From: Streptomyces sp. SAT1
GTDB lineage: Bacteria > Actinomycetota > Actinomycetes > Streptomycetales > Streptomycetaceae
Direction: 5' to 3'
DNA length: 64,000 nt
NCBI RefSeq assembly: GCF_001654495.1
Contig: NZ_CP015849.1
Location: 1,998,501-2,062,500, forward strand
Under the pieces are notes generated by a model that was not told the DNA's origin, did not search any database, and saw only the letters and a program-made list of their open reading frames with translations. Below, piece by piece: positions 13,423 to 22,867 of the stretch. The translations under genes were made by a program, and so were the position numbers. Each line of letters starts with the position of its first letter. Position 1 is the first letter of the stretch.

Positions 13423-14562
13423 ATGAGAGCCGTCCGACGCTCCGTCGTCACCGCCGCCGCCGCCGCGGTCGCCCTGACCGCCGTGACGGCCTGCACCTCC
13501 AAGAGCGACGCCGCGGACGGCGACGCGATCCAGGTGACGGCGGCCGACTCCACGTGCGACACCTCGGCCAAGACCGTACCGGCCGGACAGGTCACCCTCA
13601 AGATAGAGAACAAGGGCTCGCGGGCCACCGAGGTGGAGATCCTCTTCCCCGACGACCGGATCGTCTCCGAGAAGGAGAACATCGGCCCCGGCACCAAGTA
13701 CACGCTGACCGCCGAGGTCAAGGCGGGCTCCTACGAGATCGCCTGCCGGCCGGGCATGAAGGGCCACGGCGTCCGCCAGAAGCTCACCGTCACCGGCAAG
13801 GGCGCCGCCGCGCAGCGCAACCCCGAGCTGGACAAGCCGGTCGCCGAGTACCGCCAGTACGCGCAGGACCAGGCCGACGCCACCGTGCCGCTCGCCGAGG
13901 TCTTCGCCAAGGCGATCAAGGCCGGTGACCTGGAGGCCGCCAAGAAGGCGTACGCGCCCTCCCGCATCGGCTGGGAGCGCACCGAGCCGGTCGCCGAGTC
14001 CTTCGGGGACATCGACCCGAAGACCGACACCCGCGCCGACGGCCTGGAGCAGGGCCAGAAGTGGACCGGCTGGCACCGCCTGGAGAAGGCGCTGTGGCAG
14101 GACAAGAAGATCGGCGCCGAGGAGAAGACCCTCGCCGACCAGCTCGTCACCGACCTGAAGGACTGGCAGCAGCGGGTCGGCAAGGCGGAGATCACCCCCA
14201 CCTCCATGGCCAACGGTGCCAAGGAGCTCCTCGACGAGGTCGCCACCGGCAAGGTCACCGGCGAGGAGGACCGCTACTCGCACACCGACCTGGTCGACTT
14301 CAAGGCCAACGTCGAGGGCGCGCAGAAGGCGTACGAACTCCTCGAGCCGGTCGCGCGGAAGAACGACGCCGCCCTCACCGGCGAACTCGACAAGCAGTTC
14401 GCGGCCCTGGACACCGTCCTGGACAAGTACCGCAAGGACAAGACGTCCTACGACTTCGTCTCCTACGACACGGTCGGCAAGGAGCAGCGCAAGGAGCTGT
14501 CGGACGCGGTGAACGCGCTCGCCGAGCCGCTGTCCAAGCTCGCCGCCGCAGTGGTGAAGTAG
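13423..14562 (+). CDS. efeO: EfeO iron-uptake lipoprotein (cupredoxin plus M75 domain)
   Basis: The 379-residue extracytoplasmic protein delivers iron to EfeU. The signal peptide ends at lipobox VTAC (residue 23). Residues about 35-125 form a cupredoxin-like domain, and the M75 imelysin-type domain follows with the metal-binding motif GWHRLEKALW (an HxxE type) near residue 215. First gene of efeO-efeB-efeU; the order and spacing match other actinobacterial EfeUOB loci. The start ATG is 53 bases after an iron box. Confidence 0.93.
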   Translation: MRAVRRSVVTAAAAAVALTAVTACTSKSDAADGDAIQVTAADSTCDTSAKTVPAGQVTLKIENKGSRATEVEILFPDDRIVSEKENIGPGTKYTLTAEVKAGSYEIACRPGMKGHGVRQKLTVTGKGAAAQRNPELDKPVAEYRQYAQDQADATVPLAEVFAKAIKAGDLEAAKKAYAPSRIGWERTEPVAESFGDIDPKTDTRADGLEQGQKWTGWHRLEKALWQDKKIGAEEKTLADQLVTDLKDWQQRVGKAEITPTSMANGAKELLDEVATGKVTGEEDRYSHTDLVDFKANVEGAQKAYELLEPVARKNDAALTGELDKQFAALDTVLDKYRKDKTSYDFVSYDTVGKEQRKELSDAVNALAEPLSKLAAAVVK

Positions 14563-14573
14563 GGGACGGGACC

Positions 14574-15827
14574 ATGGCCGAGGAGCAGGAACGACGTCCC
14601 GCGCCCTCCCGCCGCGCGCTGATCGGCTGGGGCGGTGCCGGGCTCGCGCTCGGCGCCGTCACGGCGGGCGGCGCGGTGGCCGCGGCCACCGGCGGCGACG
14701 GCGCGACCGACACCGGGGGTGCCGTGGAGTTCCACGGTGTCCACCAGGCGGGCATCGCCACGCCCGTGCAGGACCGGCTGCACTTCGCCGCGTTCGACGT
14801 GAAGACCGACGACCGCGCCGAGTTCGTCCGGCTGCTGAAGGACTGGACGGCCGCCGCGCGCAAGATGACCGCCGGTGCCCCGGTCGGCGACGGCGCCTAC
14901 GGCGGGCTGGCCGAGGCGCCGCCGGACGACACCGGCGAGGCGCTCGGCCTCAAGCCGTCCCGGCTGACGCTCACCATCGGCTTCGGGCCCACGCTGTTCG
15001 ACCGGTTCGGGCTCAAGGACCGGCGTCCGGCGGCCCTGGTCGACCTGCCCCCCTTCCCCGGCGACAACCTGGACCGCTCGCGCACCGGCGGCGACCTGTG
15101 CGTCCAGGCGTGCGCGGACGACCCGCAGGTGGCGGTGCACGCGATCCGCAACCTGGCCCGGATCGGCTTCGGCAAGGTCGCCGTGCGCTGGTCCCAGCTC
15201 GGCTTCGGCAAGACCTCCTCCACCACGCCCGACGCCCAGACCCCGCGCAATCTGCTCGGGTTCAAGGACGGCACCCGCAACATCGCGGGCACCGAGACGG
15301 CGCGGCTGGACGAGCACGTGTGGGCCGGCGCCCAGGACGGCGGGGGCAAGGACGCCTGGATGAGCGGGGGTTCGTACCTCGTCGCCCGGCGCATCCGGAT
15401 GAACATCGAGACCTGGGACCGCACCTCGCTCCAGGAGCAGGAGGACGTCTTCGGCCGGGACAAGGGCGAGGGCGCACCGGTCGGCAAGGCCAAGGAGCGG
15501 GACGAGCCGTTCCTGCCCGCGATGAAGCCGGACGCGCATGTGCGCCTGGCGCACCCCGACTCCAACGGCGGGATCACCATCCTGCGCCGCGGCTACTCCT
15601 TCACCGACGGCACCGACGGCCTGGGCCGCCTGGACGCGGGGCTGTTCTTCCTGGCCTACCAGCGCGACGTGCGCAAGGGCTTCGTCCCGCTCCAGCGCCG
15701 GCTGTCCGCGCACGACGCGCTCAACGAGTACATCCAGCACGTGGGTTCGGCGGTCTTCGCGATCCCGCCCGGCGTCCGCGACGCGAACGACTGGTGGGGG
15801 CGCACCCTGCTGTCCGAGGAGGCGTAG
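14574..15827 (+). CDS. efeB: EfeB deferrochelatase/peroxidase (DyP type, Tat-exported)
   Basis: The 417-residue heme peroxidase is thought to oxidise ferrous iron for EfeU and has been proposed to remove iron from heme. The N-terminus has a twin-arginine signal (SRRALIGWGGAG, then a hydrophobic helix), so it is exported folded with heme. The DyP motif GFKDGTRN (distal Asp) is at about residue 230, the conserved block RIRMNIETWDR follows, and the distal Arg is in ILRRGYSF. The proximal His probably lies in VRLAHPDSN. It starts 11 bases after efeO. Confidence 0.93.
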   Translation: MAEEQERRPAPSRRALIGWGGAGLALGAVTAGGAVAAATGGDGATDTGGAVEFHGVHQAGIATPVQDRLHFAAFDVKTDDRAEFVRLLKDWTAAARKMTAGAPVGDGAYGGLAEAPPDDTGEALGLKPSRLTLTIGFGPTLFDRFGLKDRRPAALVDLPPFPGDNLDRSRTGGDLCVQACADDPQVAVHAIRNLARIGFGKVAVRWSQLGFGKTSSTTPDAQTPRNLLGFKDGTRNIAGTETARLDEHVWAGAQDGGGKDAWMSGGSYLVARRIRMNIETWDRTSLQEQEDVFGRDKGEGAPVGKAKERDEPFLPAMKPDAHVRLAHPDSNGGITILRRGYSFTDGTDGLGRLDAGLFFLAYQRDVRKGFVPLQRRLSAHDALNEYIQHVGSAVFAIPPGVRDANDWWGRTLLSEEA

Positions 15828-15831
15828 GTCC

Positions 15832-16704
15832 GTGTTCTCCAACTATCTGATCGGTCTGCGCGAGGGGCTGGAGGCCAGCCTCGTCGTGTGCATCCTGATC
15901 GCCTACCTGGTCAAGACCGGCCGCCGGGACGCCCTGCGGCCGATCTGGACGGGCATCGCCATCGCCATCGCGCTGGCCCTGGGCTTCGGCTGTGTGCTGG
16001 AGTTCGGCTCGCAGGAGATGACGTTCCAGGCGCAGGAGGCGCTCGGCGGCTCCCTGTCGGTGATCGCGGTCGGCCTGGTCACCTGGATGGTGTTCTGGAT
16101 GCGGCGCACCGCCCGGCACCTGAAGGCGGAACTGCACGGCAAGCTGGACGCGGCGCTGGCGATGGGCACCGGGGCGCTGGTGGCCACCGCGTTCCTCGCG
16201 GTGGGCCGCGAGGGCCTGGAGACCGCGCTGTTCGTGTGGGCGTCCGTGCACGCCGCCTCCGACGGCACCCCGCGCCCGCTGATCGGCGTGGCCCTCGGCA
16301 TCGCCACCGCGGTGCTGCTCGGCTGGCTGTTCTACCGCGGCGCCGTGCGCATCAACCTGGCCAAGTTCTTCACCTGGACCGGCGCCATGCTGGTCGTGGT
16401 CGCGGCCGGGGTGCTCGCCTACGGCTTCCACGACCTCCAGGAGGCCGACTGGCTGCCGGGCCTGACGAACCTCGCCTTCGACATCAGCGGCACCATCGAA
16501 CCGGACAGCTGGTACGGCACGCTGCTCAAGGGCGTGTTCAACTTCCAGCCCGACCCGACCGTCCTCCAGGTCACGGTGTGGCTGCTGTACCTCGTCCCGG
16601 CGCTCACGCTGTTCTTCGCCCCGGTAGGGTTCGCCTCCGGGAAGGGGAAGGTGAAGGTAGCTGATGAGCAGGGTTCGCGGCCCTCGGAGGCTTCGCAGGC
16701 TTGA
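15832..16704 (+). CDS. efeU: EfeU iron permease (FTR1 family)
   Basis: The 290-residue integral membrane protein has about seven helices. Both iron-translocation motifs of the FTR1/EfeU family are present: REGLEASLV near residue 9 and REGLETALFVW near residue 125, in the form R-E-G-L-E. GTG 15832 follows the efeB stop by four bases. It receives iron oxidised by EfeB and handed on by EfeO. The C-terminus is hydrophilic and its last 41 bases overlap the following lipoprotein gene in another frame. Confidence 0.93.
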   Translation: MFSNYLIGLREGLEASLVVCILIAYLVKTGRRDALRPIWTGIAIAIALALGFGCVLEFGSQEMTFQAQEALGGSLSVIAVGLVTWMVFWMRRTARHLKAELHGKLDAALAMGTGALVATAFLAVGREGLETALFVWASVHAASDGTPRPLIGVALGIATAVLLGWLFYRGAVRINLAKFFTWTGAMLVVVAAGVLAYGFHDLQEADWLPGLTNLAFDISGTIEPDSWYGTLLKGVFNFQPDPTVLQVTVWLLYLVPALTLFFAPVGFASGKGKVKVADEQGSRPSEASQA

Positions 16705-17719
16705 GCGGGCGGCCGTCCTGGCGGCCTCGGTGACCGCGCTGGCGCTGACGGCGAGCGGATGCGTGGTGGTGCACGGCGAGCGCGAACTGCTCCCGGGCGC
16801 CACCCGGGCCGAGGCCGCGACGGCACTGGCGCAGTTCACCGCCGCCTACAACAAGGCCGACCGGGCGTACGACAGTTCACTGGACGCGGACCGGGTCACC
16901 GGCGCGTTCGGCGCGATCGACGCGGCGCGGCTGAAGGCGGGCCGCGTCAACAGCCCCTCGGGCAACGCCGCGCACAGCCCGCTGACGCTGACGGACGCGA
17001 AGTTCACCATCCCCAAGAAGGCCGGCTGGCCGCGCTGGTTCCTCGCCGACGCCAAGGGCAACAAGGGCGGCGGCTCGCGCTGGCTGCTGGTGTTCACCCG
17101 GCACTCCCTCACCGGCACCTGGCAGGTGGCGTATCTGACGCTGGTGGCCCCGGACGCGGTGCCGAAGTTCCGGGTGGACGAGGGCGGCTGGGCGGAGGCC
17201 GTGCCCGCCGACTCCCCGGGCCTCGCCGCCGCGCCGAGCGGGCTGAGCCGCGCCTACGCCACGTATCTGAAGGACGGCGGCGACACCTTCGCCCCGGGCA
17301 CGCACACCACGGCCTGGCGCGCGCTGCGCGCCAAGAACTCGGTCCGTCCGGGCCTCGCCACCCAGTACATCGACGAGCCGCTGAGCGGCGGCGACCACGC
17401 CCCGCTGGCGCTGCGCACCGCGGACGGCGGCGCGCTGGTGTTCTTCGCCACCCGCCACTTCCAGAAGCAGACGGCCGCCGCGGGCGCCTCGGTGCCCACC
17501 CCGAACAAGGACGTCCGCGCCCTCACCAAGGGCGAGATCAAGCAGTCCCTGACCATGGAGTTCGTCTCCGCCGAGGCCGCCCTCGACCCGGCGGCGGGTA
17601 CGGGCTCCGGGTCCGGATCGGGCTCCGGGTCCGGCTCCGGCTCGGGCTCCGGGTCCGGCGGCGGGAAGGTCTCGGTCGTGGGGCGCGTGCAGGGGATGAC
17701 GTCGGCGCAGGGCGGCTGA
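16664..17719 (+). CDS. Putative lipoprotein in the efeOBU operon
   Basis: The 351-residue protein begins with a very basic signal peptide (RRLRRLERA) and lipobox LTASGC, so it should be tethered outside the membrane. The body (residues 40-300) has two similar halves of alpha/beta character, with no metal motif I can identify. The C-terminus has a Ser-Gly dipeptide run of about ten units before a short tail. The start lies inside efeU, 41 bases before its stop, which suggests coupled translation and membership in the iron operon. No family function is known to me; an accessory envelope role in iron uptake is inference from position only. Confidence 0.72.
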   Translation: MSRVRGPRRLRRLERAAVLAASVTALALTASGCVVVHGERELLPGATRAEAATALAQFTAAYNKADRAYDSSLDADRVTGAFGAIDAARLKAGRVNSPSGNAAHSPLTLTDAKFTIPKKAGWPRWFLADAKGNKGGGSRWLLVFTRHSLTGTWQVAYLTLVAPDAVPKFRVDEGGWAEAVPADSPGLAAAPSGLSRAYATYLKDGGDTFAPGTHTTAWRALRAKNSVRPGLATQYIDEPLSGGDHAPLALRTADGGALVFFATRHFQKQTAAAGASVPTPNKDVRALTKGEIKQSLTMEFVSAEAALDPAAGTGSGSGSGSGSGSGSGSGSGGGKVSVVGRVQGMTSAQGG

Positions 17720-17758: not shown

Positions 17759-18502
17759 TCAGTGGCGCAGCGGCCAGGCCGGGGCCGGGTGGCCGGGCTC
17801 GTCCGCGGTGTGGCGGGCGCAGGCGTCGGTGAGGGTCTCCAGGAGGGTGAGCGGGTCCGGGAGGGGGTGCTCGGGGCCGTGCCCCGCGAGCCAGCGCACC
17901 GCGCGGTCCGCGTCACCGGGCAGCCGGGCCGGCGGGACCAGGACGTACGAGCCCCGGCAGTGCCAGCGCAGTCCGGGGTGTTCGTCCATGGTCTCCGGGT
18001 GGCAGTCCAGCTCGCACGGCCACCACTCGTCCTCGTCCTCGGGGGTGCCGCGGGTGAGGGTGAAGAACAGCATGCGCCCGTCGTCGCTCTCCGCGACCGG
18101 GCCCACCTCCACCCCGCCGAGCCGCAGCCGCTCCAGCGCCGCCCGCCCGGCCTCCAGCGGCACGTCCAGGACGTCGTGGGCCATGCCGGTGGCGGTGATG
18201 AAGTTCGCCTCGGGCTGGTGCCTGGCCCAGCGCTCGACCTGGGCGCGGTCGGTGGTGGACTGCGTCTGCCAGGCGAACGACACCGGGTGCCGGGCGGGGG
18301 TGGGACAGCCGACGCGGTCACAGGAACAGCCGTAGCCGATCCCCGGGTGCGCGGCGGGTGCGAGGGGCAGTCCCGCGCCGGCGGCGGCGAGCAGCAGGGC
18401 CTCCCGGCCGCCGTCCCCGGCGGGCTGCTTCGGGCGGCGTCCGCGCAGCCACTGGGAGATTTTGCCCTGCCGGCCGCTGTGACCGCCGAACTCCGCGCTC
18501 AT
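17759..18502 (-). CDS. Bifunctional DNA primase/polymerase (prim-pol) domain protein
   Basis: This 247-residue protein resembles the stand-alone prim-pol N-domain proteins common in Streptomyces. An early Cys-rich knuckle (CSCDRVGC) is followed by PTPARHPVSFAWQ and WARHQPEANFITATG, the blocks of the AEP-type nucleotide-binding fold. The acidic run EDEDEWWPCELDCHPE contributes further Cys residues. The usual hhDhD catalytic metal motif of active AEP polymerases is hard to see, so activity is uncertain. It converges with the efe operon. Confidence 0.78.
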   Translation of the reverse strand: MSAEFGGHSGRQGKISQWLRGRRPKQPAGDGGREALLLAAAGAGLPLAPAAHPGIGYGCSCDRVGCPTPARHPVSFAWQTQSTTDRAQVERWARHQPEANFITATGMAHDVLDVPLEAGRAALERLRLGGVEVGPVAESDDGRMLFFTLTRGTPEDEDEWWPCELDCHPETMDEHPGLRWHCRGSYVLVPPARLPGDADRAVRWLAGHGPEHPLPDPLTLLETLTDACARHTADEPGHPAPAWPLRH

Positions 18503-18712
18503 CTATCCCCTCGCCTCGCTGTGTGGACAGCTTGCTCCGTGGCTCTCCATGGTCCCACCATCCTGCGCCTTCGGTGACCGGAGCCGGTATCCGGGGTCGG
18601 GGCAGGGCGTCTTCGCGGGGCTCACACGGCGCACGGGCCGGGGCTCACCCCGGCGCACGGCGGGTGTCCGGCAGGGGGTGCGGGTGTCCGGTACGGGGGC
18701 GCGGGCAGCGGT

Positions 18713-19348
18713 TCAGCGCGGGGCGAGTCCGTACAGCGCGTAGTCGACGAGGGTGTCGGTGTACGCGTAGGTGAGCAGGCCGGTGTGCTGGAGCCAGCGC
18801 TGGGCGACCGGGGAGACGAAGAGTTCCAGGGCGATGCGCGGGTCGATGTCGGGGCGTACGGCTCCGCTCTCCTGCGCGGAGCGCAGTCTGTGCACGTACA
18901 GCTGGAGCTGGGGTTCCAGCAGCCGGGCCACGAGTTCCCGGCTGAGCTGCTCGTTCACCAGTCCCTCGGCGGCGAGCGCGCGCGAGGGCGCCTCGAACCT
19001 CGGGTCGAGCAGCCCGTCGACGGTGGCGCGCAGCACGGCCTTCAGGTCGGCGGCGAGGTCGCCGGTGTCCGGGATGCTTCCCTGCGCCTCCGCCGCCCCG
19101 CCCAGTTTCTCCCCGCTCTGCCGCGCGCCCTGCTCGGCGAGGTCGAGGAAGGCGTCCAGGAGCACGTCGGCCTTCGACGTCCACCAGCGGTAGATGGTCT
19201 GCTTGCCGACGCCGGCCCGTGCGGCGATGCCCTCGATCGTGGTCCTTGGGTAGCCGTTCTCGGCGACCAGCGCGAGCGCGGCCTCGTAGATCGCCCGGCG
19301 CGACTTCTCGCTGCGGCGGGAGGCGTCGGGGGTGGGCTTCTTGACCAT
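18713..19348 (-). CDS. TetR/AcrR family transcriptional regulator
   Basis: The 211-residue repressor has the N-terminal helix-turn-helix at residues 15-60 (RRAIYEAALALVAENGY, then TTIEGIAARAGVGKQTIYRWW, a classic TetR recognition helix). The rest is an all-helical ligand and dimer domain. The ATG at 19346-19348 was chosen for the Lys/Arg leader typical of the family. A perfect palindrome lies 23 bases upstream, and the guanidino-hydrolase-like gene runs divergently, so autoregulation and control of that gene are likely. Confidence 0.88.
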   Translation of the reverse strand: MVKKPTPDASRRSEKSRRAIYEAALALVAENGYPRTTIEGIAARAGVGKQTIYRWWTSKADVLLDAFLDLAEQGARQSGEKLGGAAEAQGSIPDTGDLAADLKAVLRATVDGLLDPRFEAPSRALAAEGLVNEQLSRELVARLLEPQLQLYVHRLRSAQESGAVRPDIDPRIALELFVSPVAQRWLQHTGLLTYAYTDTLVDYALYGLAPR

Positions 19349-19370
19349 GCCGCGACGGTAGCAGGGGGCT

Positions 19371-19385
19371 GAGACGGGCCGTCTC
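19371..19385. promoter_or_regulatory. Palindromic operator, probably of the adjacent TetR
   Basis: GAGACGGGCCGTCTC is a perfect six-bp palindrome around GGC. Its position between the tetR start and the divergent gene, and its form, fit a TetR-family operator. Confidence 0.6.
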
Positions 19386-19549
19386 GCCACCGGGCGTCCC
19401 GGGCGCCACCCGCGTGGGCGAAGGCGGCGGTCCGGCCCGCGCGCGGCGGCGGCGCCCGGCGCACCATGGCAGCGAGCGTCCCGCGGCCGAGCACGCGGGC
19501 ACGCCGTCGCCGCGCCGACCCCGCGCCCGCCGTCTCCGAGGAGGCCGCC

Positions 19550-20392
19550 TTGGCCCGTCCCCGCCGCGCCACTGCCCGGCGCTACCTGATGTGCCCGCCC
19601 GTGCGCTTCGCCCACTCCGCCGCCGCCCGCACGCCCGGCGCGGGCACGGACCCGGCGGACGCTGCGGGCGCGGCCGACACCTCGGCGGCGCTCGCCCAGT
19701 GGGAGCGGCTGCGCGAGGTGTACCGGTCGCTCGGGCACACGGTGGAGGTGCTGGTCCCCGAGCCGGGTCTGCCGGACATGGTGTGCACGGCGGACGGCGC
19801 GCTCGTCGTGGACGGGCGGGTCCTCGGCGCCCGGTCCGCCCGGCCGCGCCGGGAGCGGGAGGAGGAGGCGCAGCTGCGCTGGTTCGCCGGGCACGGCTTC
19901 GCCCGGCTGCGCCTGCCCGAGCACGGCAACGCGGGCGAGGGCGACTTCGCGGTGACCGCCTCGTACCTGCTGGCCGGGCGCGGCTTCCGCGCCGGTCCGC
20001 TCGCCCACGGCGAGGCGCAGGAGTTCCTGGGCCGTCCCGTGATCGGCCTGGAACTGACCGACCCGCGCCGTCCCCGCCTCGGTCTCGCGCTGGCCGTCCT
20101 CGACGACGCGGCCGACGAGGTGGCGTACCACCCGCCCGCCTTCTCCCCCGGCAGCCGCGAGGTGCTGCGCCGCCTCTTCCCCGACGCCCTGCTCGTGGGC
20201 GAGGAGGACGCCGCCGCCTTCGCCCTGGACGCCGTCGGCGACGGACTGCACGTGGTGCTGCCGCGCACGGCGGCAGCCGGTCTGGACGCCGCGCTGCGGG
20301 AGCGCGGCTTCGCACCGGTCGGCGTGGAGATCGGCGAACTGCGCAAGGCCGGCGGCGGGGTGCGGCGCTGCTCCCTGGAGCTGCGCGGCTGA
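19550..20392 (+). CDS. DDAH/amidinotransferase-fold protein lacking catalytic residues
   Basis: The 280-residue protein starts at TTG 19550, preceded by GAGGAGG five bases away. An ATG at 19466 has no ribosome site. It aligns along its length with the dimethylarginine dimethylaminohydrolase/amidinotransferase family (RRYLMCPP, LPDMVCTADGALVVDG, GEGDFAV, AFSPGSREVL, GEEDAAAFALDAV, AGGGVRRCSLEL). Two catalytic positions differ as I remember the family. The block usually reading FYHLDTALAV is RPRLGLALAV, so the catalytic His is Arg. In the C-terminal GGGV-x-C motif the Cys position is Arg, with a Cys one residue later. The INPWM substrate block near the N-terminus is also missing. It may be a pseudoenzyme or binding protein. 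It is divergent from tetR. Confidence 0.78.
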   Translation: MARPRRATARRYLMCPPVRFAHSAAARTPGAGTDPADAAGAADTSAALAQWERLREVYRSLGHTVEVLVPEPGLPDMVCTADGALVVDGRVLGARSARPRREREEEAQLRWFAGHGFARLRLPEHGNAGEGDFAVTASYLLAGRGFRAGPLAHGEAQEFLGRPVIGLELTDPRRPRLGLALAVLDDAADEVAYHPPAFSPGSREVLRRLFPDALLVGEEDAAAFALDAVGDGLHVVLPRTAAAGLDAALRERGFAPVGVEIGELRKAGGGVRRCSLELRG

Positions 20393-20638
20393 ACGCCGGG
20401 TCGGGGGTGGGGGGGGGCGGCGGCGGGCGCCTCGACCGGGACCGGCCGGGGCCGGGCCTACGGACCGCCTTGCGCGCCCCCGAAGCCGACGGCAAGGCAG
20501 ACGCAGCCTCCTGCGACCGCGCGCCCGGCCCGCAACGCTCGGCCCCAGCCCTGACCCCGGCCCCGGCCCCTGCCCCGGCCCGGCGATGCGGGTCGCAGGC
20601 GACCGGGTGCGGCGGGCGGTGGGCCCGCGCCGTGCCGG

Positions 20639-21652
20639 TCAGTCCCCGTACCGTGCGCCGTCCTGAGGGGGCCAGGCGGCGCCCCAGTCGGTGTCCCGGG
20701 CCGCCTTGTAGAGGTCGCCGTGGCGTTTGGTGACCGTACGGCGGTGCAGTTGCTCGTCCGTCTCGCACAGGTCCAGCAGGACCTGCCCCTTGCGGATCTG
20801 GGGGCGCCGTACGACGCGGGCAGGCGCGGGGGCGGGGGCGGCGCGGGTGGCGGCGACGTAGCTGAACTTCTCGTCCTCGTAGGCGAGCGAGCCGCCCTTG
20901 ACCTGGCGGTGCAGCGAGGAGCGGCTGACCCGGGCCGAGAAGTGGCACCAGTCGGTGCCGGGCACGATCGGGCAGGCGGCGCTGTGCGGGCAGGGCGCGG
21001 CGACGCGGAAGCCGGCCGCGACGAGCCGGTCGCGGGCCTCGATGATCCGGGCGTAGCCGTCGGGGGTGCCGGGCTCGACGACCACGACGGCCCCGGTGGC
21101 GGACGCGGCGGCGGCAGCGGCGTCGACGACGGCCGCCCGGTCCGCCGCGGTCAGTTCGCCCAGGACGTAGGAGACGGTGACGAGGTCGCTCTCGTCCAGG
21201 GCGAGCGCGGCGCCGATCCGGGCCCGCCGCCAGGTCGCGTCGCGCAGGTCCGGGTGGGCCGCGGCGATCTCCCGGCCCAGGGTGAGCGCGGGTTCGGCCC
21301 AGTCGAGCACGGTCACCGGCCGCGTCCCGGGCCAGGTGTCGGCGACGGCCCAGGTGGCGGCGCCGGTGCCGCCGCCGACGTCGACGTGGCCGCCGGGCGT
21401 CCAGCCGGGTACGGCCGCCGCGAACTCGGCGAGCGCCGAGCGGACCGCCTCGAAGGTGGCCGGCATCCGGTAGGCGGCGTACGCGGCCACGTCGGCGCGG
21501 TCGCGCAGGATCGGCGCGTCGGTCGGGGTGGTGCCCCGGTAGTTCGCGATCAGCCGCTCCACGGCGCCCGCGGCCTGCCGCGGCGGCAGTCCGTCGAGCA
21601 GACCGGAGAGCGCGCCCCGGAGGGTCTCCGAGGCAAGTACGACGTCGTTCAC
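20639..21652 (-). CDS. Rsm22-like small-subunit ribosomal methyltransferase family protein
   Basis: The 337-residue protein has a Rossmann methyltransferase core with the SAM loop VDVGGGTGAATWA (about residues 88-100). The Rsm22-type C-terminal Cys cluster follows: CPHSAACPI and DWCHFS (about residues 228-247), a likely Fe-S or zinc site. A conserved EDEKFSYVA block is also present. Members act on, or assemble with, the small ribosomal subunit in mitochondria; the bacterial role is not well established. It stands alone, with a 246-base GC-rich gap to the gene upstream in map order. Confidence 0.85.
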   Translation of the reverse strand: MNDVVLASETLRGALSGLLDGLPPRQAAGAVERLIANYRGTTPTDAPILRDRADVAAYAAYRMPATFEAVRSALAEFAAAVPGWTPGGHVDVGGGTGAATWAVADTWPGTRPVTVLDWAEPALTLGREIAAAHPDLRDATWRRARIGAALALDESDLVTVSYVLGELTAADRAAVVDAAAAAASATGAVVVVEPGTPDGYARIIEARDRLVAAGFRVAAPCPHSAACPIVPGTDWCHFSARVSRSSLHRQVKGGSLAYEDEKFSYVAATRAAPAPAPARVVRRPQIRKGQVLLDLCETDEQLHRRTVTKRHGDLYKAARDTDWGAAWPPQDGARYGD

Positions 21653-21718
21653 CGCACGATTCTCTCAGCCGGTACGGGGTGCTCGGGGCCGCCTGATCCG
21701 GGGCGGCCCCGGGCCCGC

Positions 21719-22867
21719 TCAGGTCCCGCGTGCGGCCCGTACGCCCCGGACCGCCCGCGCGAGCCGGGTGGCCGCCGCCGCCCGCGGCCGGTTGTCGGGG
21801 CGCCGCCGGCGCGGGTGCACGGTGGTGGCCAGCAGCACCAGGAAGGTGTCGGTGGCCGGGTCGAGGACGAGGGACGTCCCGGTGAACCCGGCGTGCCCGG
21901 CCGCGCCCCGCCCGGCCAGCTCCCCCATGAAGCGCGGCTCGTCCACGGCGAAGCCGAGCCCCGGCGGGGCCAGGAGCAGTTCGACGAGGTCGGGGCCGAG
22001 GATGCGGGCCGATCCGTAGGAGCCGCCCGCCAGCAGGGCGCGGCAGAAGACGGCGAGGTCGGTGGCCGTGGAGAACAGGCCCGCGTGCCCGGCGACCCCG
22101 CCCAGCGCCCAGGCGTTCTCGTCGTGGACCGCGCCGCGCAGCATGCCCCTGTCGGCCTTGGCCCAGGGCCGCCGCTGGTCCTCGGTGGCCGCCGCGCCGG
22201 GGCAGGGCCCGAAGCGGGTGGCCGTCATGCCGAGCGGGCGCGTGATCCCCTCGTGGACCAGGACGTCCAGGGGGCGGCCCGTGACGCGTTCCAGCACATG
22301 CTGGAGCAGCAGCAGGTTCAGGTCGGAGTACGTGTAGGTGCCGGGCACCCCGACGGGGGGTTCGGCGCGCAGCCGGGCGAGCCGGGCGGCCTGGTCGGGG
22401 CAGTCGTACAGCGGGATCTCGGGCCGCAGCCCGGAGGTGTGGGTGAGCAGTTGCCGCACGGTGACGCCGTGTGCGGCGGCGGCGTGGAACTCGGGGAGAT
22501 AGGCGCCCACCTTCGCGTCCACGCCGAGCGTGCCCCGTTCGATCTGCTGCACCGCGGCGACCGCCGTGAACAGCTTGGTGACGGAGGCCAGGTCGAAGGG
22601 GGTGGCGACGGTCATGGGGACGCGTTCGTCGGGCGGGAGTTCGACGCCCCGGTCGGTGGCGGGGTCGTAGGACGCGTACCGTACGGCCCAGCCGGCGGCC
22701 TCCGCGACGGCGATCACCGGGCCGCGTCCGGCGACCACGACGGCGCCCGCCGCCCAGGGGTGCTCGCCCTCGGTGGCGGCGCGCACCTCGCGGACGAGGT
22801 GGCGCAGTTCGGCGGGGTCGAGCCCGGCCCGCTCGGGGCTGTCCCGCCGCAGTCTCGACGCGCTCAG
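21719..22867 (-). CDS. Serine hydrolase, beta-lactamase/penicillin-binding fold, likely CTG start
   Basis: The 382-residue protein carries SxxK in DLASVTKLF (nucleophile Ser), YxN in YSDLN and a third-motif region HAGFTG, the layout of class C beta-lactamase-like hydrolases and esterases. No signal peptide is seen, so it may be cytosolic. No ATG, GTG or TTG fits: the nearest in-frame GTGs are at 22975, deep inside the MFS gene, and at 22786, past conserved-looking sequence. CTG 22867 overlaps the MFS stop as CTGA and has AAGGAG seven bases upstream, so I take it as the start. It forms an operon with the MFS gene. Confidence 0.82.
   Translation of the reverse strand: MSASRLRRDSPERAGLDPAELRHLVREVRAATEGEHPWAAGAVVVAGRGPVIAVAEAAGWAVRYASYDPATDRGVELPPDERVPMTVATPFDLASVTKLFTAVAAVQQIERGTLGVDAKVGAYLPEFHAAAAHGVTVRQLLTHTSGLRPEIPLYDCPDQAARLARLRAEPPVGVPGTYTYSDLNLLLLQHVLERVTGRPLDVLVHEGITRPLGMTATRFGPCPGAAATEDQRRPWAKADRGMLRGAVHDENAWALGGVAGHAGLFSTATDLAVFCRALLAGGSYGSARILGPDLVELLLAPPGLGFAVDEPRFMGELAGRGAAGHAGFTGTSLVLDPATDTFLVLLATTVHPRRRRPDNRPRAAAATRLARAVRGVRAARGT

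Follow-up and report, generated by a model that had tools for sequence, protein, structure and literature searches.

The window, a 64,000-nt stretch of Streptomyces sp. SAT1 DNA, carries an open reading frame (hereafter the window gene) flanked by a divergent TetR gene and a conserved downstream methyltransferase gene (Table 1). Its frame is open with in-frame indels, GC3 is 0.95, and both the TTG start and the ribosome-binding site are kept in relatives. No Rfam match was found within 18000–22000, and a consensus scan of 19300–20700 returned no sigma-70 type promoter or terminator, a scan in which the consensus informs little on Streptomyces promoters.

Table 1 Features of the window gene and its surroundings (positions in the window; residues numbered from the TTG codon)
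Feature	Position	Strand	Remark
TetR-family regulator, divergent (TetR_N, TetR_C_11)	18713..19348	-	Pfam
Palindrome GAGACGGGCCGTCTC, probable TetR operator	19371..19385	.	about 22 bp from TetR start
Ribosome-binding site GAGGAG	19538..19543	+	conserved in relatives; TTG six bases downstream
ORF, 280 aa, orthologue of the "dimethylargininase" (NF045659-like) of Streptomyces, predicted dead	19550..20392	+	TTG start, residue 1 = 19550
Lid loop, residues 20-40	19607..19669	+	INPWM lost; 7-residue insertion, residues 26-32 (19625-19645)
Asp76 kept	19775..19777	+	aligns with PaDDAH Asp60 (substrate amine)
Asn82 to Asp	19793..19795	+	ArgZ Asn71 / PaDDAH Asp66 position; common to window and sister species
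Arg101 kept	19850..19852	+	aligns with PaDDAH Arg85 (carboxylate)
Glu128 to Ala, probably the catalytic Glu	19931..19933	+	register uncertain by one or two residues; Glu130 retained
Arg147 kept	19988..19990	+	aligns with PaDDAH Arg132 (carboxylate)
Catalytic His176 to Arg	20075..20077	+	gap-free; aligns with PaDDAH H162
Asp178 to Gly (Asp of HLDT)	20081..20083	+	nine clade loci, window included
Asn227 to Asp	20228..20230	+	sole change at position 227 among 96 loci
Nucleophile Cys273 to Arg	20366..20368	+	gap-free; aligns with PaDDAH C249
Rsm22-family methyltransferase, conserved downstream neighbour	20639..21652	-	Pfam

The gene order EfeO, EfeB, EfeU, lipoprotein, primase-polymerase-like, TetR, window gene, Rsm22, beta-lactamase-like, MFS, and GFO was common to other Streptomyces, with TetR and Rsm22 named from Pfam and the rest by eye; part of the loci had flanks of only about 1.5 kb, so only the nearest genes were comparable there. 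The window gene is a syntenic orthologue of a gene conserved across Streptomyces, and the full synteny rules out a recent duplicate or a horizontally acquired gene. Seven aligned neighbours shared 86.3–94.5% identity with the sister NRRL S-340 (L049), and the window gene shared 76.0%. The iron-uptake genes conserved beside the locus (EfeO, EfeB, EfeU-like genes and the lipoprotein at 13423–17719) lie downstream of FecCD- and ABC-like genes, all named by eye. The earlier note had drawn attention to the divergent TetR gene and a clean palindrome. Both are present, but the palindrome goes with TetR: it sits close to where TetR begins, and relatives have it next to their TetR genes as GAGACG-N3-CGTCTC, so it is most simply predicted to be TetR's own operator. 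In several species the orthologue has no TetR next to it (e.g., L038, L039, L040, L043, and L044), which rules out TetR and the window gene as a fixed sensor pair.

The window protein is a homologue of guanidino-modifying-superfamily hydrolases. It scored 294.2 bits against NCBIfam NF045659 (dimethylargininase, M. tuberculosis type, actinobacteria), below the 300-bit cut-off for this equivalog, and lacks the Cys, the His, and the lid motif, whereas same-locus orthologues and a second homologue in the same genome exceeded the cut-off (358–428 bits for L002, L003, L005, L037, and L058). Pfam gave zero matches at E 0.01, and the nearest PDB sequences were the arginine dihydrolases ArgZ and AgrE. 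According to a comparison of NnhA, ADI, and DDAH, the pocket consists of a Cys-His-Glu triad with an Asp close to its His (replaced by Lys in DDAH), another Asp, and a conserved Asn, while two Arg serve the carboxylate and one further Asp serves the amine (PMC11659421). In a profile alignment to P. aeruginosa DDAH (PaDDAH), taken through the sister's row, C249/H162/D66/D60/R85/R132 corresponded to positions 273/176/82/76/101/147. Several equivalent residues appear as mutants in PDB titles (DDAH C249S and H162G; ArgZ C264S and N71S; ADI C406A, H278A, D280A, and D166A). From these alignments we read family Asn227 as the probable conserved pocket Asn and Asp178 as the probable counterpart of ADI Asp280.

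We compared these positions across 96 homologous loci, made up of the window, the paralogous L002, and 94 more; in some cases two collections contributed the same protein. The claim that the catalytic His and Cys are missing was borne out: RPRLGLALAV and GGGVRRCSLEL aligned gap-free with the His and Cys blocks, and both catalytic positions hold Arg. PaDDAH C249 fell at the first Cys of the family KCC and C274 of the window protein is the second, so there is no register shift, and the neutral shift (GRRC) raised in the earlier note is ruled out. Position 273 was Cys in 94 of 96 loci, with Arg in the window and no residue in L086, where the locus is cut off. Position 176 was His in 93 loci, the exceptions being the window and two identical proteins (S. 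thermodiastaticus L037, and L060). Asn227 was kept in 95 loci and Glu128 in 94, with Asp and Ala, respectively, in the window and Phe at position 128 in L057. The E128A assignment comes from the AgrE alignment; the PaDDAH alignment is gapped there. Position 178 was Gly in 9 loci and Asp in 87, and position 82 carried Asp at three loci and Tyr at two. Position 95 (Arg95 in the window) is variable in the family, and the carboxylate Arg by profile alignment is Arg101. INPWM is gone, as reported, and the 7-residue insertion sits in its loop. The changed His block was only partly particular to this protein: H176R held up, while the Asp-to-Gly and Thr-to-Leu part is common to relatives that retain His and Cys. 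Nor was the Cys loss shared by any of the 95 other loci (94 with Cys, one truncated), and the window genome alone combined it with His loss. A scan of 84,980 species genomes with six window-protein peptides recovered 26 loci, none of them Cys-less, in a collection from which records very near the window genome may be missing. By alignment, then, the window protein appears to have lost all guanidinium-handling residues (Glu doubtful) while keeping the three head-group residues. The evidence supports catalytic death. Hydrolase activity is predicted to be absent because there is no nucleophile, no base, and two Arg in place of the guanidinium clamp.

In a tree of 78 loci, the window and L003/L049 grouped together (support 0.98), nested in a clade of 17 loci that itself had support 0.999. 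Six pairs among these 17 are identical proteins, which leaves eleven distinct ones. The window branch had a length of 0.36 and that of the sister 0. Pockets within this clade formed a series from HLDL with a near-intact lid, through HLGL with a decaying lid, to the S. thermodiastaticus protein, which has lost the His, and the window protein, which has lost both His and Cys. We defined 97 invariant positions from 56 reference proteins, of which 49 were of the intact Streptomyces type and 7 came from other actinobacteria; the 17 clade loci, L002, L047, L050, L056, and L057 were excluded. Deviations at these positions numbered 18 in the window, 18 in L060, 10 in the sister, and 2 in L058. Other clade members had changes of their own. 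The S. thermodiastaticus protein (L037 6001–6819, identical to L060) lost the catalytic His and carries D76G and R101W with Cys kept. NRRL S-340 (L003/L049) kept the triad with N82D and D178G, giving a DDAH/ADI-like Asp at 82 and a non-acid at 178, and S. kebangsaanensis (L059/L038) has N82Y, R147G, and D178G; a substrate change is possible in both of the latter proteins. Elsewhere, G227 contains two equally scoring copies ~6 kb apart (G227:C29:629574-630386 and 635607-636419), and one of the two loci (L076) has an EfeB-like gene downstream.

An intact second paralogue, which the earlier note had proposed to look for, is present in the window genome at C1:958223-959008 (L002). It has all motifs, shares 50% identity with the window protein, and adjoins an ornithine aminotransferase gene (rocD) and an AsnC-type regulator, read by eye. 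We searched 36 genomes (8 from the clade and 28 behind loci L004–L031) with the L002 protein and defined the rocD type as 77% or more identity to it. The rocD type (77–100% identity) occurred in 8/8 clade genomes and in 2 of the 28 others, whose TetR-locus copy is of the intact type (Fisher P 1.5e-6, uncorrected for kinship). From 90 genus-mates we chose the 24 whose best match reached only rocD-type level and which seem to lack a TetR-locus copy; all 24 carried the rocD type (72–85%). Streptomyces thus mostly carry one type or the other, and the window's clade carries both, the TetR-locus copy being in erosion in some of its members. However, presence of the paralogue is not by itself a predictor of erosion, because 4/8 clade genomes that have it retain HLDL and near-intact pockets. 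The earlier suggestion of a decaying paralogue agrees with the second intact copy and the relaxed constraint described below, but the gene is a syntenic Streptomyces orthologue and no stray duplicate. Another Streptomyces has a second homologue with an in-frame TAG (G071:C31:30936-31685), a redundant copy already broken. In the intact proteins called dimethylargininase (L002, L005, L045, and relatives), Asn occupies the position of the ADI/DDAH Asp and HLDT has its Asp, both of which are also true of ArgZ. In M. tuberculosis, Rv2323c is reported to lie in the roc cluster with rocD and to be required for growth on arginine (PMC4569260). Given these ArgZ-like residues and the Rv2323c data, the dimethylargininase name merits an enzymatic check.

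We fitted branch models with F3x4 codon frequencies to 18 taxa drawn from the 78-locus set. dN/dS rose from 0.047 in the intact type to 0.082 and 0.123 in the clade's HLDL and HLG parts, respectively, and to 0.187 on the window branch. Fixing the window branch at 1 was rejected (2dlnL 30.9 versus the three-class fit), and merging it with the clade cost 2dlnL 5.1. The rise was also found on a neighbour-gene tree (2dlnL 11.0 with 10 taxa and 9.4 with 7), and none of six neighbours (EfeB, EfeU, primpol, TetR, Rsm22, and MFS) was significantly raised on the window branch (2dlnL 0.02–2.7). A model-free count of non-synonymous to synonymous changes on this branch gave 52:16 for the window gene versus 108:116 for seven neighbours (Fisher P 4.5e-5). 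Non-synonymous AT-to-GC versus GC-to-AT changes were 31:6 in the window gene and 24:35 in those neighbours, that is, the window gene shows composition-driven amino-acid drift.

Ten changes on the window branch fell at the 87 invariant positions retained by the sister (22, 34, 38, 96, 128, 175, 176, 227, 272, and 273). Six coincided with or directly adjoined one of nine pocket positions, a zone of 17 positions (P 0.003, or 0.005 weighted by the AT-to-GC bias); without the uncertain Glu the zone shrinks to 14 positions and the count to five (P 0.008, 0.014 weighted). Exact-position counts gave P 0.003 with Glu and 0.019 without, and a further three of the ten changes were in the lid. Scaffold dN/dS was 0.17 in the window, 0.108 in the clade, and 0.049 in the intact type; pocket plus lid values were 0.18, 0.074, and 0.030. 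The excess of window over clade was not significant in either partition alone (2dlnL 2.0 each). Since the changes at invariant positions cluster there, the pocket has lost its extra constraint, and relaxation extends beyond the pocket. The best reading is a gene whose constraint is relaxed and still present. An open frame and the rejection of dN/dS = 1 as a branch average keep it outside the definition of a pseudogene by broken frame or neutral dN/dS, though a short recent neutral phase may be included. By simple arithmetic, evolution at the clade rate followed by dN/dS 1 would leave about a tenth of the branch neutral, so recent decay fits.

An AlphaFold2 model from 36 homologues had pLDDT 91.2 and pTM 0.90, with lid residues 21–40 at about 55. 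The sister model reached pLDDT 95.2, with the same residues at 81–90. Matches of the window model to solved ArgZ, DDAH, AstB, and ADI (Z 23.7–36.1) place it in the superfamily fold, and the claim that the family scaffold is kept is upheld by this predicted five-bladed alpha/beta propeller. The fold is thus compatible with the window sequence, although a homologue-based model says nothing firm on stability.

We think it probable, with appreciable doubt, that the window gene is a redundant copy superseded by the rocD-linked paralogue, catalytically dead and in slow dismantling under relaxed but present constraint. On this view the gene is the long-standing Streptomyces copy, still in its syntenic place, of an amidine hydrolase like ArgZ or DDAH, and the rocD-linked paralogue with its full motifs would have weakened selection on the TetR-locus copy within the clade, so that redundancy would have preceded erosion. 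Pocket change would have proceeded from Thr179Leu to Asp178Gly with the lid and then Asn82, and the window branch would have added loss of Cys, His, Asn227, and probably Glu. The product would still fold as a five-bladed propeller in which a Cys-thiouronium intermediate is impossible, and with Arg176 and Arg273 the site that once took the guanidinium would be positively charged and hence no longer bind arginine-like ligands. Such a protein would be on its way out rather than re-employed. Against this account, dN/dS = 1 is firmly rejected, and the frame, TTG, ribosome-binding site, and GC3 are intact with indels in frame. The pocket-clustered losses (P about 0.003; 0.008–0.02 without Glu) are unexpected from random decay. 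The clade also held both copies for long, half of its genomes keep near-intact pockets, and G040 and G087 hold both copies with motifs intact.

Several of these points suit a pseudoenzyme retained for a non-catalytic job, for example as a partner of the rocD paralogue or a binder of alpha-amino acids, which we regard as unlikely though with a real chance. dN/dS is well under 1 (0.19) in scaffold and pocket plus lid alike, losses cluster at the pocket, Asp76, Arg101, and Arg147 are kept, and the fold is predicted confidently except at the lid. The likewise His-less S. thermodiastaticus protein (L037) has a branch dN/dS of 0.11, and RESC5 of T. brucei is a dead member of this fold with a job (PMC9980740). 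Yet the excess of change is spread across scaffold and pocket with neither partition significant, the drift is GC-ward, and the intact paralogue explains dispensability. S. thermodiastaticus also lost head-group residues (D76G, R101W), leaving no common retained feature, and the RESC5 work describes such residues retained without ligand binding. The same RESC5 result tells against the earlier proposal of a sensor or carrier of arginine derivatives, as do the loss of the guanidinium-holding residues, the two Arg in the pocket, and the absence of TetR beside orthologues in several species. In one form of the retained-protein idea, which we rate as rather doubtful, catalysis was lost at least twice in the clade (in the window, and with the His of S. 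thermodiastaticus) while purifying selection kept the fold as a non-catalytic partner or amino-acid binder. If true, this would be a bacterial counterpart of RESC5 with the stepwise route preserved among living species.

That the protein is still an enzyme of altered mechanism or substrate, acting through Cys274 or another residue, is improbable. Cys274 and Glu130 remain, and NnhA represents new chemistry on this fold, but the NnhA study describes a kept Cys-His-Glu triad in which changing Cys or His abolishes activity (PMC11659421), and both window positions are Arg. A sequencing or assembly artefact, for which we found nothing in favour, is very improbable given a single-contig genome estimated at 100% completeness and many separate codon substitutions in one gene with normal neighbours.

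With supersession by the rocD-linked copy as the favoured account, the locus offers a graded natural series within a single genus. The series starts with an arginine-type hydrolase that has all its equipment and ends with a protein without nucleophile or base, and the intact paralogue is its candidate cause. The series makes it testable whether enzymes die after gene replacement and whether dead scaffolds are kept. Annotation of the window gene by name would mislead, and for the actinobacterial family as a whole the name dimethylargininase should be re-examined.

Among known systems, the best structural match was ArgZ/AgrE (PDB 6jv1, 6lrf), with 6jv1 at Z 36.1, 1.8 Å over 261 residues, and 29% identity. 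The window protein has Arg and Asp at the ArgZ Cys264 and Asn71 positions and no ornithine cyclodeaminase domain. P. aeruginosa DDAH (1h70, 3bpb) has the same propeller (Z 29.3–29.7); equivalents of its Asp60, Arg85, and Arg132 are kept in the window protein, whereas those of Cys249 and His162 are Arg. The NnhA paper also counts eIF6 in the guanidino-modifying superfamily (PMC11659421). No bacterial dead member of this fold was among the literature matches listed, which does not prove its absence in print. Dead members of the fold are already known, e.g., RESC5, which is reported to be a DDAH fold that lost Cys and His, kept Arg/Asp pocket residues, and bound neither citrulline nor dimethylarginine in thermal shift (PMC9980740). 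RESC5 (8dpk_D) was itself a structural match to the window model (Z 23.4), but it serves as a structural component of an RNA-editing complex and is conserved across the kinetoplastids, while the window form was seen in one genome.
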